64,000 bases of DNA, from contig JAGANL010000047.1 in NCBI GenBank assembly GCA_017624235.1, positions 62,001 to 126,000 of the forward strand. Direction: 5' to 3'. The position numbers and the translations under genes are program-made. The stretch's first letter is position 1. Each line of letters starts with the position of its first letter. Origin of the DNA: Lachnospiraceae bacterium. Lineage in GTDB: Bacteria; Bacillota; Clostridia; Lachnospirales; Lachnospiraceae. The notes below the pieces were generated by a model. It did not search any database. It was given only the letters and a program-made list of their open reading frames with translations, and was not told where the DNA came from. Positions 26,271 through 47,558 of the stretch are shown piece by piece.

Positions 26271-27335
26271 ATGAGCGAGGTTATTTTAGTAGTAGATGAC
26301 GACAGTGCAAATCTGATGCTGGCGCAAAAGATATTGGGAGGAAGCTATCGGGTTGCAGCCGCTAATTCCGGGGCAGCTGCCTTTAAGTATCTGGAGAAGA
26401 ACCGGCCGGATCTGATTCTGTTAGATATCAATATGCCTCAGATGAGTGGATTTGAAGCCATTCAGAAATTGAAAAGTGACGAAAATTACAGTTCGATTCC
26501 GGTTATCTTTCTGACTGCGGACAAGAGTGTGGAAACAGAGACGAAATGTTTTCAGGCGGGAGCGATTGATTTTGTCGGAAAGCCTTTTGTACCGGATATT
26601 CTAATCAGCAGGGTGCGCAGAACGTTGGAACTGGAAAGGTATCATTCCGGTCTGGAGGAGCTCGTCAAAGAGCAGACCAGGCAGTTGAAGGAGAGGGCAC
26701 AGAGAATCAATGAGATACAGAATCATGTCATTGTCGGGATGGCGAATCTCATTGAGAGCCGGGATGGCAGTACAGGCAAGCATGTCAAGAATACACAGCT
26801 TTACGTTACGATGATTGTAGATGAACTGAAAAATCTGGGGTATTTTTCGAAAATTCTGACCGAAGAGTACATACAGAATATCTGTAAGGCAGCTCCGCTT
26901 CATGATATCGGAAAGATTAAGATTCCTGACAGTATCCTTCAGAAGCCGGGAAGGCTTACGGAGGAAGAATTTCAGGAAATGAAGAAGCATACAGAATACA
27001 GCATGGAAATTATCCGAAATATCATTGGGGATGTCGAGGATGAGGAATATGTGAAGGTGGTAAGCGATATAGCCCTTTATCATCATGAGAGATGGGATGG
27101 AACCGGATATCCGAAAGGGCTTGCAGCAGAGCAGATTCCGCTGTGTGCCAGAATCATGGCGGTGGCAGATGTGTTTGATGCTCTGTATGAGGAGCGGTGC
27201 TATAAGTCTCCGGTGCGTCCGGTCGGAAAGGTGCTGGAGATTCTGGAAAAGGGAAAGGGCTCACAGTTCGATCCGGTCATTGTGGATGTCTTTGCGGGAT
27301 TGGAACAGAAATTGAGAGATATTTTGGGTGAATAA
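26271..27335 (+). CDS. Response regulator with active-looking HD-GYP c-di-GMP phosphodiesterase domain
   Basis: A 354-residue two-domain regulator. The N-terminal receiver has Asp9-Asp10, phospho-Asp51 in LILLDINMPQMSG and Lys in FVGKPF. A helix (about 118-150) leads to an HD-GYP domain that hydrolyses c-di-GMP. All metal-binding features are present: His170, His210-Asp211 in PLHDIGKIKIPD, His239, His270-His271 in HHERWDGTGYP, and Asp299 in VADVFDAL. Its TAA lies 8 bases inside the next gene, a hybrid kinase with an HPt domain, which is the natural phospho-donor. TATAAT 34 bases upstream with a poorly spaced TGGACA is a candidate promoter. Confidence 0.92.
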   Translation: MSEVILVVDDDSANLMLAQKILGGSYRVAAANSGAAAFKYLEKNRPDLILLDINMPQMSGFEAIQKLKSDENYSSIPVIFLTADKSVETETKCFQAGAIDFVGKPFVPDILISRVRRTLELERYHSGLEELVKEQTRQLKERAQRINEIQNHVIVGMANLIESRDGSTGKHVKNTQLYVTMIVDELKNLGYFSKILTEEYIQNICKAAPLHDIGKIKIPDSILQKPGRLTEEEFQEMKKHTEYSMEIIRNIIGDVEDEEYVKVVSDIALYHHERWDGTGYPKGLAAEQIPLCARIMAVADVFDALYEERCYKSPVRPVGKVLEILEKGKGSQFDPVIVDVFAGLEQKLRDILGE

Positions 27336-30186
27336 TGATAGGCTGGTGGCATACGTGAAAAAGAAATCTTATAAAATGGAAAATAGCAGGCCGATTGAAA
27401 TAATTATTTTGGTGATTTATACACTTTATACTCTTGCCATGTTTTTGATGACAGTTGTGATGGAGTGGGGAAGCTGGAGTGTGCAGATGATGCTGACCGG
27501 CCTGGTACTCAGTTGGGTGGTAACCATTCAGAAATATAAGGATTATAAGTTTCGGGCTTATTTTACGGCAGCAATGGTCTGGATGAATTTTATCATCTAT
27601 GGAATACATTCCCCAGGCTATGAAGGTCTGTTGTCCATGATGTGTGCGATAACTGTGCTTCTGGGTCTTTACTTTATTCCGGGCATTGTGCCCCTGTCAG
27701 CGGCAGCGTCTTTGTTTTTACTTTTGTACCATGCGTTTATTGTGTCGAGCATACAGGCCAGTTCTGTGAAGGATATTGTCCGCCTCGTGCTGCAGATTTC
27801 GGGAGTCGGCCTGACGACCTGCATTACCTGGTATCTGATTAAGATGCGTGCAGAAAGCAATGAGGAGCTTTTAGATACCATTGAGACTCTGCAAAGGGCA
27901 GAGAAGAGTAAGGATGATTTTCTGGCCAATGTATCACACGAGATACGAACCCCGATCAATACCGTATGCGGTATGAGTGAGATGGTGCTCAGGGAGGAAA
28001 TACCGGAGCGGGTAAGAAAGGATATTTTTAATATACAGACAGCAGGGAGGAACCTGCTGTCTGTTGTGAGTGATGTGTTGGATTTTTCAGAGCTGGAGTC
28101 CGGGAAGATGGAGCTTGTGGAAGAGCCGTATAATATTACTTCTACAATCAATGACATTATCAATATGAGTATTGCCAGAAAAAACGGCAAACGGATTGAA
28201 CTAATTGTAGACTGTGAGGCAACGATCCCGTGCGGGCTGGTCGGAGATGAGCAGAAGCTCAGAAGGGCAATCATGAATATCGTAGATAATGCCATCAAGT
28301 TTACCAGTGAAGGAGGAATTGTCATTACGGTTGCGTCCAGAAAGGAGAAATACGGCATCAATCTCTGTATCGGTGTGAGGGATACCGGCATCGGTATGAA
28401 TGCCGAAACGATTGAAAAGCTGTTTACCAGCTTTAATCAGGTGGATACAAAACGTAACCGTCAGGAGGGCGGTATTGGTCTGGGACTTGCCATCACATCG
28501 GCCATTGTGGATAAGATGGGCGGTTTCGTTTCAGTAAAGAGCGTTCCGGAAAAGGGAAGCGAACTGCAGGTGGTTATTCCCCAGAAGGTCTTTGATGAAC
28601 ATCCGATTATATCCGTGAGGGACTCTGAAAAGATTTACATTGCGTCCTACATTGACATGGAAAAATACGATTATATGTCGGTACGTGAAGGGTATCAAAA
28701 CATGATCCAGCATATGGTGGAGCAGCTTGGACTGTCATATCGTTCCTGTCAGAATCTGGCAGAACTGAAAAGGCGTATTGAAAAGGAAAATTTCACCCAT
28801 GTGTTTATCAGCTGGGAGGAATACTGTGAGGATCAGCAATATTTTGAAGAGCTGTCTTACCGGTTTAAGGTGATTTTAGTGCATGACAGAGAAAGCGAAG
28901 AGTGTACGGCAGGAGCAATGTTCCATATCTATAAGCCCTTCTACGTGCTTTCGATTGCCTCTGTACTGAACGGAGAAAATGTGGTTCAGAGTATGGATGG
29001 AAGTCATTATCAGAACCGGAGATTTGTTGCTCCACAGGCATCGGTGCTCGTGGTGGATGACAATGTGATGAATCTGCGGGTGGTGGAGGGGCTGCTTAGA
29101 CCATACCGGATCAAGGTATTTGTGGCAGGCAGCGGAAGAGAAGCGCTGCAGAAGATTGAGTCCATGGAATTTGATTTTGTCTTTATGGATCATATGATGC
29201 CGGAGATGGATGGTGTCGAGACGCTTCATCGAATACGTAAGAAACCTGGCAGATATTTTCAAGAGGTTCCGGTGATTGCACTGACAGCCAATGCAATTGG
29301 TGGAGCAAGAGAAATGTTCCTGTCGGAAGGCTTTGCGGATTTTGTGGCAAAGCCGATTGAGATTTCAGTATTAGAAAGGGTATTGCGCAGGCATATACCG
29401 GAAAAGAAGGTTATCAAGATCGAAGAGGCGGAAGGGCTGGAGGAAGCAGATGGAGCAGTGTCACCGGAACAGAGCAGTGTCACCGGAAAGCAGCAGCTGG
29501 AAGCTGTGGAAAGGAAAGCAGGAAAGTTTCAGATTGAGGACCTGGATGTAGAGACAGCACTGCACTATTGCGGCGGACAACTGGAGGATTATATTGACAT
29601 TGCGCGAATCTATTATACGAGCGGCCTGAAGAAAAAGGCAGAGATGGAAGAAGCATATGCGAAAAGGAACTGGAATGATTATGCGATTATGACACACTCT
29701 TTGAAGAGCATGTCCTTAAATATTGGAGCCCAGAAGCTGTCTGACATGGCAAAGGGATTGGAAACGGCCGCCAAAGCGGGGGAGGAAGCGTACATACTCC
29801 TGCATCATGCAGAAACAATCGGGGAATACAGCCATATACTTTCTGTCATCGGCAGTCATCCGGTTCTGTTTCCGGAGAAAAAGCAGGATACAGAGAGCGG
29901 TATAGAGCAGGCAACGGAAGCGGTTGCACAGGGACAGCAGGCAGCTGAGCAGAAACTGCCGGAGATGGAGAGAGAGGTGCTGTGGCAGGAGATTGATAAG
30001 CTGCAGGAACAGCTGGATCGTTTTGAATATGAGGAAGTACAGAAGGTATTGGACGGATTATGGGAAAAACAATATCAGGGAGTGGCCTTGAGTGAGCTTT
30101 TGCAGGAGGTGAAGGAAAAGGCGGATGCCTTCGACTTTATGGGAGCAGGAGAAAAACTGCAGGAAGCAAAAGAAAAAATGAGGTAA
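27328..30186 (+). CDS. Hybrid sensor kinase A1: membrane sensor-HisKA-HATPase-pseudoreceiver-receiver-HPt
   Basis: A 952-residue hybrid kinase for a multistep phosphorelay. About six membrane helices (residues 20-170) form the sensor. Next are the dimerisation domain with phospho-His204 in VSHEIRTPINTV and the ATPase with NIVDNAIKF, DTGIGM and GIGLGLAI. A receiver-like domain lacking the acidic residues (about 425-560) ends YKPFYVLSIASVLNG. The true receiver has Asp577-Asp578 and phospho-Asp621 in FMDHMMPEMDG. The HPt has His790 in THSLKS. A helical tail of 110 residues completes it. The GTG at 27328 overlaps the preceding regulator; GTG 27346 or ATG 27376 are alternative starts. A homologue with the same plan is at 42085. 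Confidence 0.9.
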   Translation: MNNDRLVAYVKKKSYKMENSRPIEIIILVIYTLYTLAMFLMTVVMEWGSWSVQMMLTGLVLSWVVTIQKYKDYKFRAYFTAAMVWMNFIIYGIHSPGYEGLLSMMCAITVLLGLYFIPGIVPLSAAASLFLLLYHAFIVSSIQASSVKDIVRLVLQISGVGLTTCITWYLIKMRAESNEELLDTIETLQRAEKSKDDFLANVSHEIRTPINTVCGMSEMVLREEIPERVRKDIFNIQTAGRNLLSVVSDVLDFSELESGKMELVEEPYNITSTINDIINMSIARKNGKRIELIVDCEATIPCGLVGDEQKLRRAIMNIVDNAIKFTSEGGIVITVASRKEKYGINLCIGVRDTGIGMNAETIEKLFTSFNQVDTKRNRQEGGIGLGLAITSAIVDKMGGFVSVKSVPEKGSELQVVIPQKVFDEHPIISVRDSEKIYIASYIDMEKYDYMSVREGYQNMIQHMVEQLGLSYRSCQNLAELKRRIEKENFTHVFISWEEYCEDQQYFEELSYRFKVILVHDRESEECTAGAMFHIYKPFYVLSIASVLNGENVVQSMDGSHYQNRRFVAPQASVLVVDDNVMNLRVVEGLLRPYRIKVFVAGSGREALQKIESMEFDFVFMDHMMPEMDGVETLHRIRKKPGRYFQEVPVIALTANAIGGAREMFLSEGFADFVAKPIEISVLERVLRRHIPEKKVIKIEEAEGLEEADGAVSPEQSSVTGKQQLEAVERKAGKFQIEDLDVETALHYCGGQLEDYIDIARIYYTSGLKKKAEMEEAYAKRNWNDYAIMTHSLKSMSLNIGAQKLSDMAKGLETAAKAGEEAYILLHHAETIGEYSHILSVIGSHPVLFPEKKQDTESGIEQATEAVAQGQQAAEQKLPEMEREVLWQEIDKLQEQLDRFEYEEVQKVLDGLWEKQYQGVALSELLQEVKEKADAFDFMGAGEKLQEAKEKMR

Positions 30187-30192
30187 TGCGGC

Positions 30193-32871
30193 ATGATAAG
30201 AAGATGGATGGAAAAATTATATGATGGAGATATCAACTTGCGGGAAAGACTCCTGAGGATTATCCTGGTCTTTTCTGTCATCACAACGGCTCTTTTTGTG
30301 ATGGCAGGACCATTTATGGGGATTTCGACAGTGGTGATATTGCCGATGGTGTTGGTATTGACGGCAGCATCCCTGAGTCTGTTTCTGGTTCGTCGTTATA
30401 AGAAAATTGATTTGGCCGCCTGCTTGATGGGGCTGATTATCAATGGACTGCTGCTTCCGGTCATCTATTTTACGTCCGGAGGCTTAGAGGGAGGCGCACT
30501 TGTCTGGTTTGTCTTTGGAGTGGTCTATGTTTATCTGATGTTTTCCGGAAGGCAGCTTTTATTTTTTCTGCTTTGGGCGAATGGATCCTTCCTGTTGACG
30601 ATGTATGCTTCCTATCTGCATCCGGAATGGGTTACGAGGTCCGATGTGACGGTGGTAAGCTATGTAAGCTGTGGACTGGCTATTTTGGTCGTGGGAACAG
30701 CCATTGGTGTGCTCATCAAGTTTCAAAAGGGCGGATATGACAAAGAGAACGAACTGGCAAATCAGCAGAAAATTGAACTGGAGCGCATGAGCCGGTCAAA
30801 AAGCGCTTTCTTTGCGAATATGAGTCATGAGATTCGTACACCAATCAATACGATTATCGGATTAAATGAAATGATCCTGAGAGAGGAGATTTCGGATGAG
30901 ATAGCAGAAAATGCCATGAATATCCAGAATGCCAGCAAAATGCTGCTGGCACTCATCAATGACATTCTGGATCTTTCCAAGCTGGAATCCGGGAAAATGG
31001 AAATTGTGCCGGTACAATATGAAACCGGTGCCATGTTCAGTGATCTGGTCAATATTATCTGGATACGTGCGCATGAAAAGGGATTGGAGTTCAAGCTGGA
31101 TATTGCAGCGGATATTCCATCCATGCTCTACGGGGATGAGGTCAGGATTAAGCAGGTATTGACCAATATTTTGACGAATGCGGTCAAATATACGGAAAAG
31201 GGTTCGGTCACACTTTCGGCAAAGGGAGAACGGGTTGGCAACAATAAGGTGCTGCTGCGCATTTCGGTGGAGGATACCGGAATCGGTATCCGAAAAGAGA
31301 GTGTGAAGGAACTGTTTTCCTCATTCCGAAGGGTGGATGAGGAGAAAAACCGCAATATTGAAGGTACGGGATTAGGATTGTCCATTTCCAAACAGCTCAT
31401 TGAAATGATGGGTGGAGAAATTTCCGTGGATAGTATCTATACAAGAGGTTCGGTGTTTACTGTTACAGTAGAGCAGGATATTGTGGATGCGAATCCGGTA
31501 GGAAGCGTGGACTTCATGATCAGGAAAAAAAGCCTTTACCGGGAAAGATATAAACAGAGCTTTGAGGCTCCTGAGGCCAGAGTGCTTATCGTGGATGATA
31601 ATGAAATGAATTTGATGGTGGCATGTAAGCTGTTGCGTGCTACGAGGGTACAGGTCGATACGGCTGTCAGCGGCAAGAAATGTCTGGAAATGACAAAAAC
31701 TAAGGCATATCATGTGATTTTCATGGATCACATGATGCCTGAAATGGATGGAGAAGAGACCCTGAGGCTTTTGAAGCAGCAGGAAAACGGCCATTGTCAG
31801 GATGTGCCGGTCGTTGCGCTGACGGCCAATGTCATGAATGGAGCAGAAAAGATATACCGGGATAAGGGATTTGCAGGTTATCTTGCCAAGCCGATCAGCG
31901 GGGCGCTGTTAGAAGCGACATTGTTAAAGTATATTCCAAGGGAGCTGATCGAATACAGTGTACAGGAGGCTGAAAAAGAGAATGCGAGGGAGACGATCAA
32001 GCTGATTTCCCCGGCAGGCAAGCGAAAGGTCATGATCACTACGGACTGCGTATGCGATCTGCCGGAAGCCTGGCTGGAACAGTTTGGCGTGAAGGTCATG
32101 TATTATTATGTCCTGACCAAAGAGGGAAGATTCTGTGATGGCAGAGAGGTATCTTCGGACAGCCTTTTGAAATATCTGGAGCAGTCGGGTAATACCGCCA
32201 GTTCTTCGGCAGCGTCGGTGAAAGAATATGAAGCTTTTATGGCGGGTGCTTTGGGTGAAGCGGATAAGGTACTGCATATCTCCATGGCTTCGGCTGTCGG
32301 CGAAGGGTTTCAAAATGCCACGGCTGCCTCAAAGGGCTTTGACAATGTCCGGGTATTTAACAGCGGGCATCTGTCAAGCGGTATGGGTCTTCTGGTGCTA
32401 TATGCCGCAAAAATGGCGAAGGACGGATGCGGCGTAGAGGAAATCTGTAAGAAGCTGGAAATGGTCAGAGGCAAAATCTCCACCAGCTTTATCGTATCCT
32501 CAGCGGACAGCCTGTACCGGAATCAAAAAATCGGTAAAGGCGTTATGAAGCTGTGCCATACCTGGGGCATTCATCCGGTACTCTATCTGTCACAGAACAG
32601 AATTAAGGTGCAGGGCGTGAAAATTGGAAAAGGAGATACTGCATTTAAGCGATATATCCGGCATCAGCTGCGACACAGGAAACAGATCGATACCAGAATC
32701 CTTTTTCTGACCTATGCCGGCTGTTCCTTAAAGCAGCTGAAGCAGATTCAGGAGGAAGTGGCAAAATATGTACGGTTTGACCGTATCGTGCTGCAGAAGG
32801 CATCAGCTACCATTTCCAGTAACTGTGGAATCGGAGCCTTTGGATTGATTTTTATGAAAAAAATAAAGTAA
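30193..32871 (+). CDS. Sensor kinase A2: six-helix sensor-HisKA-HATPase-receiver-DegV fusion
   Basis: An 892-residue protein with an unusual end. Residues 1-175 form about six membrane helices with a conserved loop, YFTSGGLEGGALVWF. A HisKA domain with His212 (MSHEIRTPINTI) and a complete ATPase domain (NILTNAVKY, DTGIGI, GTGLGLSI) follow. The receiver has Asp468-Asp469, phospho-Asp512 in FMDHMMPEMDG and LAKPIS. Residues 612-892 are a full-length DegV domain, a fold known to bind a fatty acid: ITTDCVCDLPEAWLEQFGVK and VRVFNSGHLSSGMGLLVLYA. The DegV loop normally TDS-x-A-D reads TDCVCD (Cys619, Cys621). It lies 6 bases after A1. I know of no described kinase-DegV fusion; a paralogue is at 44895. 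Confidence 0.88.
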   Translation: MIRRWMEKLYDGDINLRERLLRIILVFSVITTALFVMAGPFMGISTVVILPMVLVLTAASLSLFLVRRYKKIDLAACLMGLIINGLLLPVIYFTSGGLEGGALVWFVFGVVYVYLMFSGRQLLFFLLWANGSFLLTMYASYLHPEWVTRSDVTVVSYVSCGLAILVVGTAIGVLIKFQKGGYDKENELANQQKIELERMSRSKSAFFANMSHEIRTPINTIIGLNEMILREEISDEIAENAMNIQNASKMLLALINDILDLSKLESGKMEIVPVQYETGAMFSDLVNIIWIRAHEKGLEFKLDIAADIPSMLYGDEVRIKQVLTNILTNAVKYTEKGSVTLSAKGERVGNNKVLLRISVEDTGIGIRKESVKELFSSFRRVDEEKNRNIEGTGLGLSISKQLIEMMGGEISVDSIYTRGSVFTVTVEQDIVDANPVGSVDFMIRKKSLYRERYKQSFEAPEARVLIVDDNEMNLMVACKLLRATRVQVDTAVSGKKCLEMTKTKAYHVIFMDHMMPEMDGEETLRLLKQQENGHCQDVPVVALTANVMNGAEKIYRDKGFAGYLAKPISGALLEATLLKYIPRELIEYSVQEAEKENARETIKLISPAGKRKVMITTDCVCDLPEAWLEQFGVKVMYYYVLTKEGRFCDGREVSSDSLLKYLEQSGNTASSSAASVKEYEAFMAGALGEADKVLHISMASAVGEGFQNATAASKGFDNVRVFNSGHLSSGMGLLVLYAAKMAKDGCGVEEICKKLEMVRGKISTSFIVSSADSLYRNQKIGKGVMKLCHTWGIHPVLYLSQNRIKVQGVKIGKGDTAFKRYIRHQLRHRKQIDTRILFLTYAGCSLKQLKQIQEEVAKYVRFDRIVLQKASATISSNCGIGAFGLIFMKKIK

Positions 32872-32938
32872 AAAAATCGGTTTTTTGATAAAAACACAAA
32901 AAATTGACACATATTTATATAAATTACCATAAAATTAC

Positions 32939-32967
32939 TTGAATAATTGATACATATTATCTATAAT
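32939..32967 (+). promoter_or_regulatory. Sigma-A promoter of the second chemosensory operon
   Basis: TTGAAT (32939-32944), a 17-base spacer and a perfect TATAAT (32962-32967), 31 bases before the ATG at 32998, in an AT-rich gap of 126 bases. A second possible -35 (TTGACA at 32904) has no good -10 at normal distance. No sigma-28 element is seen, so this operon appears to be under housekeeping control. Confidence 0.75.
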
Positions 32968-32997
32968 TTTCTTATCTGGTGTTTGGAGGAAGGATTT

Positions 32998-34521
32998 ATG
33001 GATCAGAGTGGCCTGTTTCAGTTTTCTGCAGATCATGCGTTGGAAGACATTTTGATATTTGATGAGAGCGGCCGAATCTGCTATGTGAATCGGTCAGTGG
33101 AGCAGCATCTGGAATATAAGAAAGCAGAACTGTACGGATGTCTGATTACGGATATCTTTTCCGGTACCTGGGAACTGAAGGAAGGTAGAATCCGATGTGG
33201 TCAGGCTGACGGGAGTCTTCAGGATATGATGGCATATCGTAAGAACGGTACCTGCTTTCCTGTAAAAGCAAGGCTGCTTGTCTATCGTGATCTCCAGGAC
33301 GGGGCGGAAGGGCACAGAGCCTATATTTGTATGGCTCATGATGTCTCCAATGAAATCTTTCTGGAAAAGAAGGCCAGCCGGGCAGGACAGGAGGCAGAGG
33401 AAGCTCTGAAGGTAAAGTCGGAGTTTGTGGCCAATGTGACGCATGAGCTCAGGACACCGGTCAATGGAATTTTGGGCAATATACAGGAATTGATTCGGCA
33501 GGAGACGGAAACGGACAAATTGAAGCTTCTTCATCTGGTAGAACGAGGATGCCATGATATGAATGCCCTGATCAATAATATTCTGGATTTTTCCAAGCTG
33601 GAAGCCGGTAAGTTCACGTTGGAAGCACGCAGCTTTCCTTTTCGGAACATGGTTGATTACGTAAAGTCCAATCACAGCAGCAAGATTATTGAGAAGGGAT
33701 TGGAGTTTTCGGTTACGGTTGCACCGGATATTCCGGAGCATGTGATAGGCGATGAACTCAGAATCGTGCAGATTCTCAACAATCTGCTCTCCAATGCCTG
33801 TAAATTTACATCGGTCGGAAGCATTCACGTGGAGATTGTGCAGACTGCCCGTTCCGGTAACCGTGCCGAGCTGTTTTTTATTGTCACCGATACCGGAATT
33901 GGGATTTCCAAGACCGATCAGGACAAGCTGTTTCAGAGCTTTTCACAGGTGGATGCTTCTATTTCGCGTAAATATGGGGGCACCGGTCTTGGATTGAATA
34001 TTTGTAAGCAGCTGGTGGAGCTGATGGGCGGCAGCATTCATGTGGATAGTGAACCGGGAAAGGGAACGAGATTTTTCTTTCATATCTGGGTCGAGATACC
34101 GCAGGATGAGGCCGGAGTTTCCGACTCGGAACCGGAAACGATTCCGACGGATGAGCAGGAAATCGTCCGCAAGCTGAAAAATCTGACGGAAAGCAGCATC
34201 AGTGAAAAAATCTGGAGCTATGGTGAAAAAGAAAATCAGGAAGAATTAGATAAGAAAATGTCTAAGCTCATTCTCAGTGTAGAAATGGGAAATTGGGAAA
34301 AGGCAGAGCAGTTTATAGAAACGATAAAGCAGCTTGTGGAAGGAGCGCCCAGAGAAGTGAAAAGTGTGGCGCTCAGACTGAAGATGGCAGTGCAAAAGGG
34401 GGACTATGAGAAGACTACGATAGCCTTTGAAAAGCTGCAGCAGCTGTTACATAACATGGAGGAGCCGAATGATGGGGAGCGGAATGAACAAGGTGCTTCC
34501 GAGGATTCTGATCGTGGATGA
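32998..34521 (+). CDS. PAS-domain sensor histidine kinase
   Basis: The first gene of the second chemosensory operon: a 507-residue kinase without membrane helices. The ATG at 32998 follows TTTGGAGGAAGGATTT; the upstream extension is not coding. A PAS domain (about 10-125, [20 protein letters not shown], and [10 protein letters not shown] at its end) is followed by HisKA with His149 in [14 protein letters not shown] and an ATPase with [16 protein letters not shown] and GTGLGLNI. The last 110 residues are charged and helical, with no receiver. Being soluble, it probably senses an intracellular signal. It overlaps the next gene by about 50 bases, so the two are coupled, and the receiver-HD-GYP-like product is its likely partner. 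Confidence 0.9.
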
Positions 34522-35542: not shown

Positions 35543-35564
35543 CGTAGACATCGGAGAAGGCAGT

Positions 35565-36383: not shown

Positions 36384-36385
36384 GG

Positions 36386-37414: not shown

Positions 37415-37475
37415 CAGAAGAGCAAAGGTGTGAATGGATAGATTACGTGTGCGGAGCACACAGATGGGAGCAGAT

Positions 37476-37868: not shown

Positions 37869-37896
37869 AGAAATGTGCTATAGAAAGGAGCGCTAA

Positions 37897-40050
37897 ATGG
37901 CAGAAGAGTTTAATACACAGGGAATGCTGGACATGTACCTGTTTGAAAACGGACAGCTGCTGGAACGGCTACAGGAGATTGTGCTGGAACAGAAGGATGC
38001 GGAATGCTTTGATGAGGAGAGCATCAATGAAATCTTCCGTACCATGCACACAATCAAAGGCTCCTCCGGAGTGATGATGTTTGATGAGATTACCAAGGTG
38101 TCGCATAAGCTGGAAGATGTCTTTTATTATCTGCGTGAATCTCATCCCCAAAAAGTACCGCATCTGAAGCTGGTGGAGCATGTGCTGGAGGTAGCAGATT
38201 TTATTACCGATGAAATGGAGAAAATCCAAAATGGGGAGAATGCGGATGGAGATGCCGGTAAACTGGTGGCAGAGCTGGACAGCTTCCTGACGCAGATCAA
38301 GAGCGGTAAAGGAGAAAAGGAGAAGAAAATACAGGAAAATGTGCACGAGGAGCCGCAGCAGTTCTACATAGCACCAATGGCAACCAGTGCCAGTCATTTC
38401 TATAAGATTTATCTGACCTTTTATCCGGATGTACAGCTGGCAAATGTGCATGCGTACAAGATTGTCTATGCCCTGAAGGAGATTGCAGAGGATTTGCTGT
38501 ATTATCCGGAGGATATCATTTCGGATGAGAGCAGTGCTCAGGAGATTCTGGAAAACGGTTTTAAGATTCTACTTCAGGCTCAGTGCAGTGAAGCGGAACT
38601 GCGTGAGATTATCAAAGAGGGCTATGAGCTGAAGAAGGTTGATATTTACGAATGTACGGCGAAGGAATATCAACAGGGCTTCGACAGCATCGGTTCGGAG
38701 ATTCGGATCGATCTGGAATCCAGCGTGGAGGAAATCGAAGCCAGAACAGACACAGCAGCGTCAGAGGAGGAAAATAAGCAGGAAGAGGATAAGAAACCGA
38801 TTGCTCCCGGTGATTTTGTCATTGCATCCAAGGAACCGGGCAAGGGCAAGAAGCTGGCTAAGGATAAACCAAAGAAGCAGGAAAAGGCAGCATTTATCAG
38901 TGTAGATGTCCACAAGATGGATATGCTGATGGATCTGATCGGAGAGCTGGTCATTTCCGAATCCGTAGTATTGCAGAATCCGGATTTGAAGGTGGAAGGC
39001 CTGAAACTGGACAATTTCAATAAGGCAGCAGCCCAGATGTCCAAGATATCCACTGATCTCCAGAATGTGATTATGAGCATGCGCATGATGCCGCTGACGA
39101 ATACCTTCCAGAAGATGAACCGTATTGTTTTTGATGTGTCAAGAAAGCTGGGAAAGGACATTGAATTTGAAATGTCGGGAGAGAATACGGAGGTCGATAA
39201 GAATATTATCGAGCATATTTCCGATCCACTTATGCATCTGGTGCGCAATGCGGTCGATCATGGTATTGAGACGGTGAAAGAGCGTAAGGCCAGCGGTAAG
39301 ACCGAAAAAGGTAAGGTTACTTTATGGGCCAAGACGGAGTCAGGAAAGGTATGGATTGGCGTACAGGATAACGGTAAGGGACTGGAGAGGGATAAGATTC
39401 TCGCAAAGGCCAAAAAGCAGGGACTGTTAGATCCCCGCAGGGAGGAAAAGTCCTACAGCGACAAGGAGGTCTATCAGTTTATCACACTGCCGGGCTTTTC
39501 CACCAATGAAACCGTTACAGAATATTCTGGCCGTGGTGTCGGAATGGACGTGGTGGTTTCCAATATCCAGGCTATAGGCGGAGCGCTGGAAATTGAGAGT
39601 ACACCTGGACAGGGAAGTCTGATGGTTCTGAAGATACCGTTGACACTTTCCATTATCGATGGAATTGTCATGGAGGTAGGACATTCCTATTTCGTCATCG
39701 AGACCGGAGCCGTGAAGGAGTTTGTAGGAGTGAGGGGAAATATGCTCATTCACGAGCCAAGCGGCGAGGAATTTGTGATGATACGTGGAGAATGCTATCC
39801 GGTCCTCCGTCTTGGAGAGTGGTATCATCTGGATGGGTATGAAGCAGATATGGAAGACGGTATGCTGGTGCTGATAGAGGTAGAGAAGCAGATTGTGTGT
39901 CTGTTTGTGGATCGCCTGATCGGCAAACAGGAAATCGTGGTCAAGCCGATTCCGGATTACATAAAGAAAGTGAAAGGATTGTCGGGATGTACCCAATTGG
40001 GAGATGGAAGCATTGCTCTGATATTGGATGCATCCGGATTGATCGAATAG
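37897..40050 (+). CDS. cheA: Second chemotaxis-type histidine kinase CheA
   Basis: A 717-residue CheA homologue. Domains: HPt with His51 in FRTMHTIKGSSGVM; a P2-like domain (about 165-260); a Lys/Glu-rich linker; P3 dimerisation (VDVHKMDMLMDLIGELVIS); ATPase with HLVRNAVDHG, VQDNGKGLE and SGRGVGMDVVV; and a C-terminal CheW-like domain ending LGDGSIALILDASGLIE. Sequence and linker lengths differ well beyond strain variation from the flagellar CheA at 14156. The ribosome binding site AGAAAGGAGCGC precedes the ATG. It probably phosphorylates the neighbouring CheY-like protein and CheB. Confidence 0.95.
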   Translation: MAEEFNTQGMLDMYLFENGQLLERLQEIVLEQKDAECFDEESINEIFRTMHTIKGSSGVMMFDEITKVSHKLEDVFYYLRESHPQKVPHLKLVEHVLEVADFITDEMEKIQNGENADGDAGKLVAELDSFLTQIKSGKGEKEKKIQENVHEEPQQFYIAPMATSASHFYKIYLTFYPDVQLANVHAYKIVYALKEIAEDLLYYPEDIISDESSAQEILENGFKILLQAQCSEAELREIIKEGYELKKVDIYECTAKEYQQGFDSIGSEIRIDLESSVEEIEARTDTAASEEENKQEEDKKPIAPGDFVIASKEPGKGKKLAKDKPKKQEKAAFISVDVHKMDMLMDLIGELVISESVVLQNPDLKVEGLKLDNFNKAAAQMSKISTDLQNVIMSMRMMPLTNTFQKMNRIVFDVSRKLGKDIEFEMSGENTEVDKNIIEHISDPLMHLVRNAVDHGIETVKERKASGKTEKGKVTLWAKTESGKVWIGVQDNGKGLERDKILAKAKKQGLLDPRREEKSYSDKEVYQFITLPGFSTNETVTEYSGRGVGMDVVVSNIQAIGGALEIESTPGQGSLMVLKIPLTLSIIDGIVMEVGHSYFVIETGAVKEFVGVRGNMLIHEPSGEEFVMIRGECYPVLRLGEWYHLDGYEADMEDGMLVLIEVEKQIVCLFVDRLIGKQEIVVKPIPDYIKKVKGLSGCTQLGDGSIALILDASGLIE

Positions 40051-40077
40051 AAAATACAGGAAAGGAAAAGGGTGCAT

Positions 40078-40584
40078 ATGGGTGGACATGATACACAGCA
40101 GAATAAATATGTAACCTTTAAATCGGGGAACGAATATTTCGGACTGAAAATTGAGTATGTGAATGAGATCATTGTTTTTCAGGAAATTACGGAGATTCCC
40201 GAGAGTGAAGATTACATCAAGGGGCTGATTAATTTACGAGGTAAAATCATACCGGTGATTGATGTCAGAATCCGGTTCAAACAGGCTCCGTTAGAGTATA
40301 ACGACAGAACCTGCATCATTGTAATCAATGTAAAGGATACGGTAGTAGGACTGATTGTTGAGAAGGTGGCTGAGGTAGTGGAGATTCCGGAGGAAAATAT
40401 CCTGCCGTCTCCGAAAATCGGACATGAAGAAAAATCCCAGAACAGATATGTGTATGGAATCGGAAAAGTAGGAGAAAGCGTAAAGCTTTTGCTGGATCCG
40501 GATAAGCTGCTTCGGGACGAAGAGCTGGAAATGCTGGAGAAGGCAAGTGAAGATACGGTAGGAGAAGGAGAAGTGATACTATGA
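40078..40584 (+). CDS. cheW: Second chemotaxis coupling protein CheW
   Basis: A 168-residue CheW-domain protein coupling the adjacent receptor to the adjacent CheA. The ATG at 40078 is placed after AAAAGGG; an in-frame GTG at 40072 overlaps that site. Family strands are [38 protein letters not shown] and [10 protein letters not shown]-like [11 protein letters not shown]. The C-terminus has a short acidic extension. The last four bases (ATGA) overlap the receptor start, a sign of translational coupling and of dedicated pairing. Confidence 0.94.
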
Positions 40585-41933
40585 AAAATGTAAAAATGCA
40601 CTTGAAGCTGGCTATTGGTTTTATTATGATTGATATTTTACTGGTTCTTTCCCTGTGGCTGAGCTACAGTACAGCATCCAGCATCATAACGGTGGAGGAT
40701 CCGGTCAGGTATCTGAATAATTATGGAATGTTTGTTATCGTACAGTTCCTGATATTCATGACGATTACCGGATATATTTCAATCTCGCTGCTTAGAACGA
40801 TCCGTAAATCCATGGCAGAGCTGACCAAAGCGGCAGATGCGATAGCAGCAGGCAGGGTAGATATCACAATGCGTAAACGGGGCAATGATGAGTTCGGGAT
40901 ACTGATGGATGATTTCCAGAGAGTTGTGGACAATATGAGCTACGAGGCTCAGGTCGCTCAGGAGGTAGCCGACGGAAATCTGACCGTGGATGTGCGTATC
41001 CGTTCTGAAGAGGATGTCATGGGACTTGCACTCAAAAAGCTGGTTCAGAATAATCATCATGCAGTCAGCAATATTCAGGATGCAGCTTATCAGGTAACAA
41101 CCAGCTCCTCCCAGGTGGCAAGTGCCAGTGAAGCGCTTGCACAGGGATCTACTGAGCAGGCCAGTGCAATCGAGCAGATTACTGCATCCATTGGAGATAT
41201 TGCAGACCGGACGAAACAGAATGCTTCTCAGGCCAATGCAGCAGCGGATCTGATGGCTCAGGCCATTGCAGATGTCAGGAAGGGAAATGAGGAGATGCAG
41301 GATATGGTAGTAGCTATGCAGGATATCAATAAATCCTCCGAAAGCATCTCGAAGATTATCAAGGTGATTGATGACATTGCATTCCAGACCAATATTCTGG
41401 CATTGAATGCAGCAGTGGAGGCTGCCAGAGCAGGGGATGCAGGCAAGGGCTTTGCGGTAGTGGCTGAAGAGGTTAGAAATCTGGCTGCCAAGAGTGCATC
41501 GGCTGCTGCCGAAACAGCGGAAATGATTGAAGATTCCATTCAAAAGGTGAATGCCGGTTCCAGAATTGCAAATGAAACAGCACAGGCATTGGAAGAGATC
41601 ACTGCGGTTGTGAAAAAGAGTGAGACAATTATTACGGAGATTGCCGAAGCATCCAATTATCAGGCAACGGCTATTGCGCAGGTGGATCAGGCTATAGAAC
41701 AGGTATCGCAGGTGGTACAGACCAATTCTGCTACCAGTGAGCAGTGCGCTGCAGCCAGCATGGAATTATCCAATCAGGCCAGCCGGGTAAGGGATCTGCT
41801 TTCCATATATAAACTGGATGGAGGTTCTCAGCAGACTGTGGGAGCAGCTGAGGACAAGGAATATCGGGCAGAGAGCAATGCGGATAAGAATGAACAGATT
41901 ATTTCATTGAAGGATGGCTTTGGCAAGTATTAA
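40581..41933 (+). CDS. Methyl-accepting chemotaxis protein without a sizeable sensor domain
   Basis: A 450-residue receptor. Two transmembrane helices (about 8-30 and 48-72) are separated by only about 18 residues, so there is no extracellular ligand domain. A HAMP domain (about 75-125, [20 protein letters not shown]) and a cytoplasmic signalling region follow, with the hairpin tip [20 protein letters not shown] and [19 protein letters not shown]. No C-terminal CheR-tethering pentapeptide is evident. With such a small input region it may sense membrane state, or receive input from another protein such as the kinases nearby. It overlaps cheW by four bases and ends the operon. Confidence 0.93.
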
Positions 41934-41966
41934 ATACCGGGGCTGAATGGAAGGATAAGCATACGA

Positions 41967-42036
41967 GATCTGCACTTGTTGTTTCCAACAAATCACAAAG
42001 AGAAACAGCAGGTGCAGATTCTGGTATGTTTTTTTA
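41967..42036 (+). terminator. Strong terminator of the second chemosensory operon
   Basis: A long imperfect hairpin. GATCTGCACTTGTTGTTTC (41967-41985) pairs with GAAACAGCAGGTGCAGATTC (42002-42021) through about 19 base pairs including two G-T pairs and one bulge. A run of seven T follows (42029-42035). It lies 34 bases after the receptor gene and 49 before the next kinase gene. Confidence 0.92.
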
Positions 42037-42084
42037 TACAACAGTTCTTTTCAAGGCATTTTATAGGGCACAAGAGGAGGATTT

Positions 42085-44922
42085 ATGATCGAAAAGGTAA
42101 CCTATGAAGGAGAGAATCAAAAAAAGATAGAGAGGTATCTGCTGACTGCCTACAGTGTTTATATTCTCTTTCTGCTTGCGGTGCCACAGGAGCAAAAGTG
42201 GAACACATGGGGGGACTATTTGATGATTGCAGGAGTGGCAGCCTGCTGGATGATTCATATTGGTGAATATGGCACTTATTTGTTTCGTGCCGGATTTACA
42301 GCGGTTATGATGCAGATTAGTTTGATTTTTTGCGCGGTACATGCAGAAGAGCTGTCAGATGTTCTGCCATTTTTGCTGGCCTCTGTCATATGTCTGGGAT
42401 TGTATGGTAAGGAGGAGATTGTTTACATAGCGGTCGCTTCCACCATTGTGATTTTTTTCTATCACGAGATTATCAGGGGACACATCTTTGAGACATCTGC
42501 AAAGGGACTTCTCTACACGGGATTGCAGCTTGTAAATGCGTTGCTGGTGGAAAATGTGGTGTATAACTGGACGAAGCGAAACCGGAAGGGAAGCAAGTTC
42601 CTGCTGGGTGCCATTGATGAGTTAAAGGAAGCGGAAAGCAGCAAGGATGATTTCCTTGCGAATGTCAGCCATGAGATTCGGACACCAATCAATACGATCT
42701 GCGGAATCAGCGAAATCCTTTTGCAGGAGGAATTACCGCAGCATATGCAGGTAAATGTGCGCAATATACAGCTTGCGGGACGTAATTTGATGGATGTGGT
42801 CAGCAATATTCTGGATTTTTCGGAGCTGCAATCCGGTGATATGGAATTGGAAGAGGAGGCCTATAATATTGCCTCTACCATCAATGATATCATCAATATG
42901 GCGATGGCAAGACGAAATGAGAAGCCGATTGAATTGATTGTGGACTGTGATGCCAACCTGCCCTGCGGTCTGATGGGGGATGAGAAGAAGGTACGCAGGG
43001 TGATCATGAATCTGGTGGATAATGCAGTCAAGTTCACAGAGGAAGGATGTATCAGCATCGTAATCGGGTTCAGACGGGAGAGCTATGGAATCAATCTGAT
43101 CATTCGGATAAAGGATACCGGAATCGGTATGGATGAGACCAGCCTGGAAAAGCTGTTTACCAGCTTTAATCAGGTAGATACCGGCAGATGTCGACAGGAG
43201 AGCGGTCTGGGACTCGGACTGGCTATAGTCCAGGAACTGGTGCAGAAAATGGGCGGTGCGATTACGATAAAGAGCAAAAAGAACAAAGGAACTGTGGTAA
43301 AATTCGTGGTTCCGCAGAAAGTGCTGGATGATACTCCGATTGCATCCCTGCGCGACAAGGACGCAATCAATGTGGCAACCTATATTGACATGGAACAGTT
43401 CAGGATGGCAGCAATCCGTGATGAATATTCGGCCAATATCATGCACATGGCGGAGCAGCTTAGGGGAAAATGTCACATGTGCCGTAATTTGGCAGAGCTG
43501 CAGAGAAGGGTGCAGAGGGAACATTTTTCACATATTTTTATCAGTCCGCCGGAATACCATGAGGATCAGGCCTTTTTTGATGCTTTGTCGGAGCAGGTAA
43601 AGGTTGTTCTGGTATTGTACAGAGAGGAGGAAAAGGATATCAGCAATCCGAGACTGTTGAAAATTTATAAGCCCTTTTATATTCTTTCGATTGCTTCCGT
43701 GCTGAACAGTGAGCAGATGGATGAACAGGGGGGCGTCCGCCCGGGAAAATTTATCACCAGGAATGCGCATGTGCTCGTAGTGGATGATAATCATATGAAT
43801 CTGCAGGTAATTGGAGGGCTTCTGGAGCTTTATAAGATACGGGTCACAAAGGCGGAAAGCGGCAGTCAGGCATTGGAAAAAATTACTTCGATGGATTATG
43901 ATTTTGTCTTTATGGATCATATGATGCCGGAAATGGATGGAGTGGAGACTTTGCATCGTATCCGAAACAAGGTAGGTACCTATTATCAGAAGGTACCGAT
44001 TGTGGCCTTGACGGCAAACGCTGTAGCGGGTACAAGGGAAATCCTGATAGGAGAGGGATTTACTGATTTTTTGGAAAAACCTATCGAAAAATCCGTGCTG
44101 GAACGGGTGTTGAAACGGAATCTTCCGCCTGAGAAGATTATAACAAGGGAGGTATATGAAGAGATGCCTGTTCCAGCAGAAGATGCGAAGGAAAAGGCAG
44201 AAAATATCCGGTTGGAGCAGGAGGAGAAAAAAACGGAGGATAAGGAATGGGAGAAGGAGCTTGAGGAAGCAGGGCTGGATGCCGGTCAGGGAATGGTTTA
44301 TTGCAGCGGGAAGGAGCAATATATTCAGGTGCTGCGGGGCTTTCTGGAGGATTATCCGGTATCTGCTTCTCAGGCAGAGCGATTGTTTTTACAAAAGGAG
44401 TGGAAGGATTATACCATCGTAGTGCATGGCATCAAGAGTGCGATGAAGAGTATCGGAGCATTTTCTGTTTCAGAACTTGCCAGACTGCAGGAGCAGGCCG
44501 GCAGAGAAGGACGAACGGATGATATTTTGGAACGGCATGCAGGGCTTATGGAAGCCTATCAGGCACTTTTTACGGCCTTACGGAAGCTGGACTGGCTACA
44601 GCCGGACAGCGTAGAAGAGGATGCGGATAAAACAGAAGAGACGGGGAAAGAAGCTCTTGAGCAGGAACAGTTTGAAAAGCGGCTTCTGGAGATGAAGGAT
44701 GCAGCGTATGATCTGGATGAAGAACGGCTGCTGAAAATGATTACGGAGCTGCAGCTATATACCTATCGTGGCATTTCGCTGGAAGCACTGATGACCCGTG
44801 TAAAGAAGAAGGTGGAAATGTCGGATTATATGTCGGCGGTGGAAATGGTGATGCGTCTGAAGAAGGAACTGGAAGAAAAGGAGGGGGAGGAAGCGTGTGG
44901 AAAAGAATCATCCGTTTTATAG
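42085..44922 (+). CDS. Hybrid sensor kinase B1: membrane sensor-HisKA-HATPase-pseudoreceiver-receiver-HPt
   Basis: A 945-residue paralogue of the protein at 27328, with the same order of parts. About five or six membrane helices (20-165) are followed by phospho-His196 in VSHEIRTPINTIC and an ATPase with NLVDNAVKF, DTGIGM and LGLGLAIV. A receiver-like domain without acidic residues ends IYKPFYILSIASVLN. The true receiver has Asp567-Asp568 and phospho-Asp611 in FMDHMMPEMDG. The HPt has His781 in VHGIKSAMKSIGA. A helical tail completes it. The ATG follows AGAGGAGGATTT. Its end overlaps the next gene by 28 bases. The membrane sensor has diverged from A1 more than the signalling domains have, suggesting a different signal. 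Confidence 0.9.
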   Translation: MIEKVTYEGENQKKIERYLLTAYSVYILFLLAVPQEQKWNTWGDYLMIAGVAACWMIHIGEYGTYLFRAGFTAVMMQISLIFCAVHAEELSDVLPFLLASVICLGLYGKEEIVYIAVASTIVIFFYHEIIRGHIFETSAKGLLYTGLQLVNALLVENVVYNWTKRNRKGSKFLLGAIDELKEAESSKDDFLANVSHEIRTPINTICGISEILLQEELPQHMQVNVRNIQLAGRNLMDVVSNILDFSELQSGDMELEEEAYNIASTINDIINMAMARRNEKPIELIVDCDANLPCGLMGDEKKVRRVIMNLVDNAVKFTEEGCISIVIGFRRESYGINLIIRIKDTGIGMDETSLEKLFTSFNQVDTGRCRQESGLGLGLAIVQELVQKMGGAITIKSKKNKGTVVKFVVPQKVLDDTPIASLRDKDAINVATYIDMEQFRMAAIRDEYSANIMHMAEQLRGKCHMCRNLAELQRRVQREHFSHIFISPPEYHEDQAFFDALSEQVKVVLVLYREEEKDISNPRLLKIYKPFYILSIASVLNSEQMDEQGGVRPGKFITRNAHVLVVDDNHMNLQVIGGLLELYKIRVTKAESGSQALEKITSMDYDFVFMDHMMPEMDGVETLHRIRNKVGTYYQKVPIVALTANAVAGTREILIGEGFTDFLEKPIEKSVLERVLKRNLPPEKIITREVYEEMPVPAEDAKEKAENIRLEQEEKKTEDKEWEKELEEAGLDAGQGMVYCSGKEQYIQVLRGFLEDYPVSASQAERLFLQKEWKDYTIVVHGIKSAMKSIGAFSVSELARLQEQAGREGRTDDILERHAGLMEAYQALFTALRKLDWLQPDSVEEDADKTEETGKEALEQEQFEKRLLEMKDAAYDLDEERLLKMITELQLYTYRGISLEALMTRVKKKVEMSDYMSAVEMVMRLKKELEEKEGEEACGKESSVL

Positions 44923-47558
44923 CGGGAAGAGACTATGAGTTACGGGAGAGACTGTTTCGCTTCATTATTCTGGTCGGAGGAGTGGTTTCATTGATTGCAG
45001 CCGTAGAAACCTTCCTGATGATGAAAACCGGTATGCCAATGTTGCTGGCGTTGTGCATACTTTTAGCACTGAGTATCGGAATGCTTGCGACCTTTAAATA
45101 CCGAAAGATTGAATTGGCGGCTCTGTTAGTAGGGCTGGTTATCAGTAATGTGATATTTCCAATCGTATTTTTTACGAACGGAGGTGTGGAAAGTGGCGCA
45201 ACGGTCTGGTTTGTGCTGGGTATCTTATATTTTTCCGTCATGTTCAATGGGAAAAAGCTGGTATTCTTGATGGTACTGAATCTTCTGAGCTACGCTGTGA
45301 CCTATGGAATCGGCTATTATTTTCCGGAAACGATTATACCGATGGCATCCAGGGGTGCTGTTTTCAGTGATTCTTTGTTTTCTGTGCTGGCAGTCGGATT
45401 GTGCGGCGGCATGATTTTGAAAATACAGATGAGAGTGTATGAGGCAGAGCATCGGGTGACAATAGAGCAGAAGGAAAAGCTTGAGCAGGGAAGAAATTCC
45501 CAGAATGTTTTTTTTGCAAATATAAGCCATGAGATACGCACACCAATCAACACCATTATCGGTCTCAATGAACTCATCCTGCGGAGTAATCCGAAGGGGG
45601 AGCTGAAGGAATATGCTCAGGATATACAGCTGGCAAGTAAAATGCTCTTGAGTCAGGTGAATGATATTCTGGATCTGTCACAGATGACGATGCAGAAGAT
45701 GAGGATTCTTCCGGGAGATTACCGTACTGTGGAACTGTTTGACGAGCTGGCGGATCTGATTCATGTGCGGGTGGAGAAGAAGGGACTGGTTTTTTGCCTG
45801 AACATGGATTCGAATCTGCCGTCTGTGCTAAACGGGGATGCCAAACGACTGAGACAGGTTTTTTTGAATATTCTGGATAATGCAGTAAAGTACACAAAGG
45901 AAGGGTCCGTAACCCTGGCGGTACAGGGAGAGGAATGCGGTGACGGCGACCTCCTGTTAAAGGTGAAAGTCACGGATACCGGGGTTGGAATCCGTAAGGA
46001 GGATATGGATTCTATTTATGATTCCTTCAAACGGGTAGATGAGAAGAAAAATGAACGGATTGAAGGAAGCGGTCTTGGGCTGGCAATTACCAGACAGCTG
46101 GTGGAGCTGATGGATGGAGAGATAGCGGTAGACAGCATCTATACCAAGGGTACTGTGTTTACGGTGACTCTGAAACAGAAAATAGTGGATGTATCACCAA
46201 TCGGCAATATACACTTCCTGCATAGGAAAAGAAGAGAGGATGAAATCTATCAGCCCAGCTTTGAAGCTCCAGACGTCAGGATACTGGTGGTAGATGACAA
46301 CCGAATGAATGCCAGGGTAGCTGAAAGGCTGTTACAGCCTACCAGAGTGCAGGTGGATATTGCAGCCAGCGGAGAAGAGTGTCTGGAGATGACCAGGAGG
46401 AAATACTATCATGTCATTTTGATGGATGGTATGATGCTTGGCATGAGCGGCCCTGAAACCATGAAGTGCATTCGCAGTCAGGAAAACGGTCTGTGCAGGG
46501 ATACTGCTATTATTATCATGACCGGAAATACGCTTTCGGGTGCCAGGCAGATGTATCTGGAGGAGGGCTTTGACGGGTACATCGAAAAGCCGATAATGGG
46601 CGAGGTGCTGGAAGCAGAGATTTTGCGTCTGCTGCCTGCGGATCTGATTGAATATCAGGAGAGTGGGACGGTAGAAACCGGAAGCCAGATTCAGAGGATA
46701 TCGATGAGGAAGCGTAAAAAGGTCTATATTACGACGGAATGCTCCTGTGATATCCCAGCTGAGCTTCTGGAAAAATATGATATTCAGCTCATGTATCTCT
46801 ATATCAAGACACCCTTCGGACGTTTTGCGGATACCAGGGAGATAGATTCGGACAGCCTGAACCAGTATCTTTCCGGGGACAGCAGCAGCGCCTATGCAGA
46901 GAGGGCGACCGTGGAGGAGTATGAGGAATTTTTTGCGGAGAGACTGACGGAGGCAGATAGTGTCGTACATATAGCCATCGGCTCCTGTACCGGTCAGAGC
47001 TGTCAGATGGCTCAGACAGCGGCAAAGGGCTTTGACCATGTGCATGTCATCGATTCCGGTCAGATATCCTGTGGTCAGGGGATGCTGGTACTGTATGCAG
47101 CAAAGATGGCACTGGAAGGGAAAGGGGCAGAGGAAATCTGTGAAGAGATTGAAAGGAAGAAGGGAGCGATTCAGAGCTGCTTTATCATGCCGGCGGCAGA
47201 TATTTTTTATCAGAACGGCCGTACGCGGTCCATTACGGCAAAGGCCTGTAGAGTATTCCATCTTCATCCGATGTTTAAGCTGCATAAAAAGAAGGTTTCT
47301 ATTGTCGCACTTTTGGGTGGCAGCATAGAGGATGCCTGGAGACAGGGAATACGCTGGCATCTGAAAAGAAAACGAAGAATATGCAGGGATGCTGTTTTTA
47401 TCACGTATATTGGCTGTACGGTTAAGCAGCAGAAGTATATCCGAAAGGAGATCAAGAGATGTGTTCCGTTTGCCCAGGTCATCATGCAGAAGGCATCCTT
47501 TTCCAGTGCATGCAATACGGGGCTGCAAACGATCGGAATCGCCTATTTCTCTATGTAA
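44895..47558 (+). CDS. Sensor kinase B2: six-helix sensor-HisKA-HATPase-receiver-DegV fusion
   Basis: An 887-residue paralogue of the protein at 30193. A GTG start at 44895, after GGGGGAGGAAGC, overlaps B1. Residues 1-175 are membrane helices with the conserved loop FFTNGGVESGATVWF. The kinase has His212 (ISHEIRTPINTI), NILDNAVKY, DTGVGI and GSGLGLAI. The receiver keeps its phospho-Asp, but the usual MPEMDG reads MLGMSG. Residues 609-887 are a full DegV domain: ITTECSCDIPAELLEKYD and VHVIDSGQISCGQGMLVLYA. As in A2, a Cys-x-Cys pair (Cys616, Cys618) replaces the usual Ser/Ala positions of the DegV loop. Both copies keep this pair although their overall sequences have diverged, which suggests function. 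Confidence 0.88.
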   Translation: MWKRIIRFIAGRDYELRERLFRFIILVGGVVSLIAAVETFLMMKTGMPMLLALCILLALSIGMLATFKYRKIELAALLVGLVISNVIFPIVFFTNGGVESGATVWFVLGILYFSVMFNGKKLVFLMVLNLLSYAVTYGIGYYFPETIIPMASRGAVFSDSLFSVLAVGLCGGMILKIQMRVYEAEHRVTIEQKEKLEQGRNSQNVFFANISHEIRTPINTIIGLNELILRSNPKGELKEYAQDIQLASKMLLSQVNDILDLSQMTMQKMRILPGDYRTVELFDELADLIHVRVEKKGLVFCLNMDSNLPSVLNGDAKRLRQVFLNILDNAVKYTKEGSVTLAVQGEECGDGDLLLKVKVTDTGVGIRKEDMDSIYDSFKRVDEKKNERIEGSGLGLAITRQLVELMDGEIAVDSIYTKGTVFTVTLKQKIVDVSPIGNIHFLHRKRREDEIYQPSFEAPDVRILVVDDNRMNARVAERLLQPTRVQVDIAASGEECLEMTRRKYYHVILMDGMMLGMSGPETMKCIRSQENGLCRDTAIIIMTGNTLSGARQMYLEEGFDGYIEKPIMGEVLEAEILRLLPADLIEYQESGTVETGSQIQRISMRKRKKVYITTECSCDIPAELLEKYDIQLMYLYIKTPFGRFADTREIDSDSLNQYLSGDSSSAYAERATVEEYEEFFAERLTEADSVVHIAIGSCTGQSCQMAQTAAKGFDHVHVIDSGQISCGQGMLVLYAAKMALEGKGAEEICEEIERKKGAIQSCFIMPAADIFYQNGRTRSITAKACRVFHLHPMFKLHKKKVSIVALLGGSIEDAWRQGIRWHLKRKRRICRDAVFITYIGCTVKQQKYIRKEIKRCVPFAQVIMQKASFSSACNTGLQTIGIAYFSM

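Follow-up and report, generated by a model that had tools for sequence, protein, structure and literature searches.

We analysed a 64,000-nucleotide stretch of the genome of a Lachnospiraceae bacterium (GenBank assembly GCA_017624235.1, contig JAGANL010000047.1), hereafter the window, in which two pairs of hybrid histidine kinases flank a chemosensory operon. The window spans positions 62001–126000 of contig 4 of this genome (G000; 2.33 Mb, 80% complete), positions below are counted from its first letter, and every feature given with coordinates at this locus is on the forward strand. Cassette A begins with a receiver protein carrying an HD-GYP domain (REC-HD-GYP, 26271..27335), whose gene overlaps by 8 bases that of a predicted membrane hybrid kinase ending in a histidine phosphotransfer (HPt) domain (HPTK_A, 27328..30186); after a gap of 6 bases follows a second predicted membrane hybrid kinase, which ends in a DegV domain (DEGK_A, 30193..32871; DegV domain, 32023..32868). 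Cassette B comprises kinases of the same two kinds, HPTK_B (42085..44922) and DEGK_B (44895..47558; DegV domain, 46710..47555), whose genes overlap by 28 bases. An earlier note on this DNA had reported both kinase pairs, and their coordinates, order and junctions agree with the list of open reading frames; the REC-HD-GYP gene lies just outside the range it covered. Between the cassettes lies the operon that we call che2, encoding a PAS histidine kinase (32947..34521, likely start at 32998 by eye), a REC-HD protein (34427..35542, likely start at 34469–34484 by eye), CheR (35523..36383), CheB (36386..37414), a CheY-like receiver (37434..37868), CheA (37897..40050), CheW (40072..40584) and a methyl-accepting chemotaxis protein (MCP, 40581..41933). 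These Pfam assignments are those the earlier note had made, except at the REC-HD gene, discussed below.

Pfam also bore out the note's claim that the cassettes share one domain order, giving HisKA-HATPase-REC-HPt for the genes at 27328 and 42085 and HisKA-HATPase-REC-DegV for those at 30193 and 44895. The DegV matches had E values of 2e-42 in DEGK_A and 2e-30 in DEGK_B (PF02645, 145.7 and 106.3 bits against a cut-off of 27); the HPt matches were weak (5e-4 in HPTK_A and 5e-3 in HPTK_B, both under the curated cut-off), and the HPt histidine is present in both. The N termini of both kinds of kinase are hydrophobic and, by hydropathy, probably membrane-spanning. Cassettes A and B are alignable over nearly their whole length, with 44.7% identity between the HPTKs (939 columns) and 44.2% between the DEGKs (875 columns), and they are old paralogues, falling in different clades of the DEGK tree. 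A third relative of DEGK in the same genome (contig 35, L086:464-2704) has the same membrane, kinase and receiver part and ends in an HPt rather than a DegV domain.

To place these genes among their relatives, we scanned species genomes with DEGK_A, kept as loci the best 80 of at least 591 relatives, added stretches from further genomes and compared 100 near-full-length DEGK genes. An HPTK gene stands directly upstream of DEGK in 95 of the 100, most of these neighbours overlapping by 4 bases or lying within 50. Two of the five DEGKs with no called HPTK must be the window's own cut stretches (L004, L005), two (L056, L095) sit within the first 600 bases of their stretch, and at L052 the overlap is above the limit set. 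The conserved unit is the HPTK-DEGK pair, in keeping with the two-kinase module of the earlier note. Across 92 pairs, the window's two included, catalytic residues were kept in all 92 DEGKs at seven positions, among them the HisKA histidine, the N-box asparagine and the REC aspartate and lysine, and in 88 to 92 of the HPTKs at eight kinase and receiver positions (HisKA histidine, 88; REC aspartate, 91). Between HATPase and REC the HPTKs carry a further stretch that, read by eye, is receiver-like without the acceptor aspartate; Pfam found no domain there, and an aspartate stands at the acceptor position, itself picked by eye, in 2 of 92.

The distribution of HPt domains was the clearest feature of these pairs. 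With a local profile, we detected exactly one HPt in 90 of the 92 pairs, on HPTK only in 69 and on DEGK only in 21; no pair had it on both, and two had it on neither. For one of these two, L078, a further short frame at the contig end may hold the HPt; we have no explanation for L045_17099. Together with L078, the 21 pairs that carry the HPt on DEGK make up a single clade of 22 (SH-aLRT 100%), in which HPTK is about 685 amino acids long and DEGK about 1150; the position of the HPt changed once on the DEGK tree. Pfam, run on four of these pairs, placed the HPt on DEGK in 4/4 (in L071 under the cut-off) and on HPTK in 0/4. Because the HPt moved sides once and no pair has two, a relay shared by the two kinases is the best explanation. 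The parts of a hybrid-kinase phosphorelay (active-site histidine, ATP boxes, receiver aspartate and HPt) are all present, and the HisKA-HATPase-REC-HPt order is that of BarA, ArcB and TorS, with BarA and TorS as the best NCBIfam matches, far under their cut-offs. Unlike those kinases, two dissimilar kinases are here encoded side by side and carry a single HPt between the two, a receiver-like stretch lacks its aspartate, and a DegV domain is added. We regard the module as a new form of hybrid-kinase phosphorelay, one that includes a FakB-derived domain.

Receiver proteins that could accept phosphate from such a relay are frequent neighbours. Surveying 90 pairs, the window's two left out, with a gene picker that misses some receivers (for example the REC-HD-GYP of L011), we found a soluble receiver, defined as shorter than 560 amino acids, adjoining 46 pairs, 35 times upstream and 11 times downstream; another 8 pairs are linked to che, 10 adjoin a larger protein with a receiver, and 7 lie at an edge. 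As background, 71 of 583 genes more than 3 kb away carry a receiver (12%). The neighbouring receiver is a REC-HD-GYP for A-type cassettes and part of other clades, a single receiver of 120 amino acids in L021 and L092, and a protein of 251–260 amino acids with a C-terminal receiver in L071 and L074; some pairs adjoin genes unrelated to signalling, such as a galactosidase or a uracil-DNA-glycosylase. REC-HD-GYP genes, orthologues of the one at 26271, lie directly 5' of HPTK_A, and the HD histidine-aspartate pair and the GYP glycine are kept in 22/22 of the copies preceding HPTK. The 26271 protein itself has both the HD pair and the motif HHExxDGxGYP, which we take to be that of HD-GYP phosphodiesterases. 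With these residues intact it resembles NosR-type REC-HD-GYP phosphodiesterases, whose NCBIfam model it matches below the cut-off.

The REC-HD protein of che2 (34427) differs from these enzymes. Its HD histidine is replaced by cysteine (LCDLGN), so that the HD pair is missing, which corrects the HD-GYP-like reading of the earlier note. The same histidine is lost in 22 of 28 REC-HD copies, 24 of which stand in che operons and four directly before HPTK_B, and by its residues the protein is probably a pseudo-phosphodiesterase kept within the che operon.

The operon itself is the second chemosensory array of the genome, which has two CheA genes, both in the window. It is complete, with a CheA containing domains P1–P5 and with CheW, MCP, CheR, CheB and CheY; neither cheC nor cheD is among its eight genes. 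The flagellar che operon is a separate cluster at 8091–20682, which encodes an FHIPEP protein (FlhA), an SRP54-type GTPase (presumably FlhF-like), a ParA/MinD-like ATPase, CheB, CheA, CheW, CheC, CheD, a sigma factor and FapA, and che2 is distinct from it. Four flagellin-type matches and 12 GGDEF matches in the genome suggest an organism that has flagella and uses cyclic-di-GMP. Like other accessory arrays, che2 has cheR, cheB, cheY, cheA, cheW and mcp; it differs in adding the PAS kinase and REC-HD, which by a hand count occur in 23 of the 27 related che2 loci where sequence upstream of cheR/cheB could be read (the exceptions are L105, L108, L109 and L126), and in having the kinase pair attached at some loci. 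Its MCP has two close hydrophobic segments and almost no extracytoplasmic domain, so its input probably comes from the membrane or the cell interior.

We then asked how often the kinase pair and che2 stand together. In eight relatives (L016, L030, L034, L035, L048, L067, L091 and L114) the HPTK-DEGK pair directly follows mcp of a che2 operon, so that the arrangement described for cassette B recurs; at L016 no cheR match was found, and the stretch of L030 starts in cheW. When the window is counted, che linkage is seen in 9 of the 82 pairs that could be decided, with at least three changes on the tree. Seven of the eight relatives belong to the B clade. The exception, L067, falls in the HPt-on-DEGK clade, so its linkage after mcp is separate or a replacement. 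At four B-clade loci (L025, L026, L027 and L029) a REC-HD gene stands directly before HPTK_B with no che genes. These REC-HDs group with the che-linked ones (SH-aLRT 98%), apart from the che2 REC-HDs of their own genomes, and L048, which is che-linked, clusters with the same four loci in the DEGK tree (96%), a pattern we read as suggesting scars of a lost che linkage. From these relationships, cassette B probably belongs to che by descent.

For cassette A the neighbourhoods told a different story. No cassette A was found upstream of the PAS kinase in the seven che-linked relatives read, over a few kb each, and no CheA, CheB, CheR or CheW match within at most 10 kb either side of the A-type loci L006–L014 (at L008 a single MCP-like gene lies on the opposite strand). 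In genome G101, cassette A (L009) and che with cassette B (L114) are on different contigs. Given the different clades of A and B and these che-less A-type loci, we reject a tandem duplication of the cassette around che, and the earlier note's picture of a duplicated module assembled around the array is not supported. In a genome of the same genus (G001, 88% complete) we found REC-HD-GYP, HPTK_A, a DEGK_A split into two frames and pieces of DEGK_B with a broken frame, then the symporter, MCP and AlaRS genes of the window; about 12 kb holding che2 and HPTK_B are missing, and CheA2 was not found in this genome. The DEGK_A split (L087:9683-12362) lies between REC and DegV near an A run and may be genuine or due to faulty assembly. 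A DEGK_B that has decayed where HPTK_B is gone would fit two kinases that depend on each other, but this is one case only. The order A-che-B, seen only in the window's genus, is a local arrangement and not an obligate two-cassette island.

We next explored what the DegV domain has become. Passages of PMC8892158 assign T62, S95, S171 and H270 of FakB to holding the fatty-acid carboxylate, R173 to a latch and catalytic role and R205 to FakA binding. Aligned to FakB1 of S. aureus (PF02645; PDB 6mh9, 6alw), the kinase DegVs have, by sequence profile, the full-length DegV fold: a profile of 24 of them matches FakB structures, including 6mh9 at 5e-29, and both window copies passed the NCBIfam DegV domain model. 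They differ from FakB1 in being fused behind the kinase and receiver of a membrane protein and in their pocket. Among 102 kinase DegVs, with the window's two copies counted twice, the T62 position is mostly still serine or threonine (81), and the S95 position is serine in 53 and glycine in 30, the R173 position arginine in 38 and lysine in 15, the H270 position asparagine in 90 and histidine in 2, and the R205 position arginine in 1. The 92-pair set gave an asparagine at H270 in 82 and a hydroxyl residue at T62 in 75. DEGK_A reads S/G/K/I/N at T62/S95/R173/R205/H270 (a second alignment gives G at R205), and at T62/S95/S171/H270 neither copy keeps the carboxylate network (DEGK_A, S/G/N/N; DEGK_B, A/G/N/N). 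Of three free-standing DegVs found in this genome, those on contigs 40 and 25 retain T62, S95, R173, R205 and H270 but not S171, and the one on contig 10 (L003/L112) has also lost R205 and H270, so kinases are not alone in this loss. The kinase DegVs are probably not FakA partners, and with R205 and H270 changed the domain is probably a sensor or gate rather than a carrier. In the 13 rows taken as the A clade, from which L041 and L089 were excluded, the T62 position is serine in 12, and the DegV of A may still hold an acyl ligand; for that of B, whose pocket is more altered, such a ligand is doubtful.

The DegV domain stands directly behind REC, the usual place of an output domain, and it could accordingly be read as an output, with receiver phosphorylation controlling how fatty acids are captured or passed on to lipid metabolism; the cassette would then regulate lipids instead of sensing them. 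We consider this improbable. Of the 102 domains, 101 lack the FakA-docking arginine and most have another residue in place of His270, and in all four HPt-on-DEGK pairs checked with Pfam the DegV domain is flanked by REC and HPt, which puts it within the relay rather than at the end.

Taken together, we favour, as probable though well short of assured, a reading of these genes in which HPTK and DEGK would form one heteromeric membrane module sharing one HPt. Phosphate would pass from kinase histidine to REC aspartate, to the HPt histidine and on to the aspartate of a neighbouring soluble receiver, and the FakB-derived DegV domain, no longer serving a fatty acid kinase, would act as ligand-binding sensor or gate. 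Cassette A would most likely set cyclic-di-GMP breakdown through the REC-HD-GYP at 26271, and cassette B most likely feed the che2 array via CheY2, CheB2 or the REC-HD pseudo-enzyme; that the two cassettes stand next to each other here is particular to the genus.

Several observations pull the other way. No receiver gene was detected next door in 19 of 83 non-edge pairs, and the trees come from quick searches whose only support values are SH-aLRT. Within the 98% REC-HD clade the branching order is unsettled, so the view that the four REC-HDs were left behind is only an inference. By hand tally, among 26 genomes that carry che2 as well as a DegV-kinase, which were mostly chosen for holding DEGK and share ancestry, the two are linked in 8 and apart in at least 15; the remaining three (G030, G106 and G012), first scored undecidable, also look apart, since a REC-HD-GYP precedes the cassettes of G030 (L089, L094) and G106 (L014), and at L108 (G012) no kinase pair is seen over 8.8 kb downstream of cheA. 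The earlier note had named rare co-occurrence as what would speak against its island; for A that is what we find, its adjacency to che being confined to the window's genus, and for B it is so in part. A terminator-like hairpin followed by a T run (41957..42036) separates mcp from HPTK_B; the hairpin (41957–42031) folds at −38.8 kcal/mol (z = −7.9), with 0 of 200 shuffles as good, and a similar sequence, compared by eye and unfolded, occurs in L034, L035 and L091. The corresponding gap is 3 bases in L016 and 9 bases in L067. The separation in at least 15 genomes, the hairpin and the absence of cassette A beside che in the seven relatives read would all be expected if the cassette were an independent module whose place beside che has no function. 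We regard such hitch-hiking as possible but the less probable account: REC-HD beside HPTK_B at four che-less loci suggests an old linkage of the B clade, a second cassette lineage occupies the same post-mcp spot in L067, and DEGK_B has decayed in G001, where che2 and HPTK_B are absent.

The pockets of the B clade also count against our preferred reading. They are the most altered, with alanine at the T62 position in 9 of 15 and glycine at the S95 position in 14 of 15, so that B may bind something else or nothing. This loss of most FakB hydroxyls, together with the many hybrid-kinase matches in genomes of the family, would suit ordinary shuffling of hybrid kinases that left DegV a dead remnant with no ligand. 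We think this unlikely, since many DegV positions are strongly conserved among the DEGKs compared (which were chosen for near-full length) and even DEGK_B, with its altered pocket, retains the PF02645 match given above.

Whether the whole locus is transcribed as one was also considered. A single operon from 26271 to 47558 is doubtful, given the hairpin before HPTK_B and a promoter-like site (32939..32967, a consensus match only) ahead of the PAS-kinase ATG at 32998, and two or three transcription units are likelier than one. Promoter-like patterns in the region are near shuffle level (37 against a shuffle mean of 31.5, sd 5.7). A pattern scan ahead of the PAS kinase in 15 relatives gave a sigma-70-like match in 2 (L115, L123) and a SigD-like one in 0; in the region the SigD-type pattern had one match, on the other strand, with at least one match in 34 of 100 shuffles, and no Rfam family (riboswitch or other RNA) reached the gathering threshold. 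Outside the locus, a flavin reductase-rubredoxin gene, which shares bases with a lactate/malate dehydrogenase frame, lies 5' of cassette A (24644–26222), and a sodium:alanine-type symporter and a Cache MCP directly follow DEGK_B (47654–50971). A distant symporter of the same family also stands just after DEGK in L060, L064, L069, L072, L081 and L101.

We also sampled how widely the DegV-kinase occurs. A full-length copy was counted by hand in 12 of 60 family genomes, this one and the frame-split G001 included, and was found in 0 of 38 genomes from other families of the order (nine candidates scored per genome in both); a sample of the phylum gave 1 of 199 genomes, the window's own (four candidates scored per genome). 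Records labelled Oscillospiraceae (L018, L023), Ruminococcus (L047), Ruminiclostridium (L062) and Alistipes (L007), labels that are unverified, are at odds with a strict family limit. In open-access titles and abstracts, with subscription journals mostly outside this scope, we found no description of a DegV-kinase fusion or of this che operon.

The value of these results lies in two points, the locus that joins che to cassette B and the shared HPt. An HPt carried by either of two neighbouring kinases and never by both is a clear natural sign of two kinases working in one relay, and through it the order of the phosphotransfer steps can be put to a direct test. The sequences suggest a lipid-linked signalling relay. 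A more specific version, which we put forward tentatively and consider less likely than not, is that lipid or fatty-acid occupancy of DegV, which in one clade is placed between receiver and HPt, controls receiver-to-HPt transfer in the two-kinase complex, and that gut Lachnospiraceae would thereby steer cyclic-di-GMP (through A) and a dedicated che2 array (through B) by membrane or dietary lipid. If true, the DegV/FakB fold, studied until now in proteins that act as carriers for fatty acid kinase, would here serve signal transduction, and would offer a candidate link in gut bacteria from lipid state to motility and cyclic-di-GMP.

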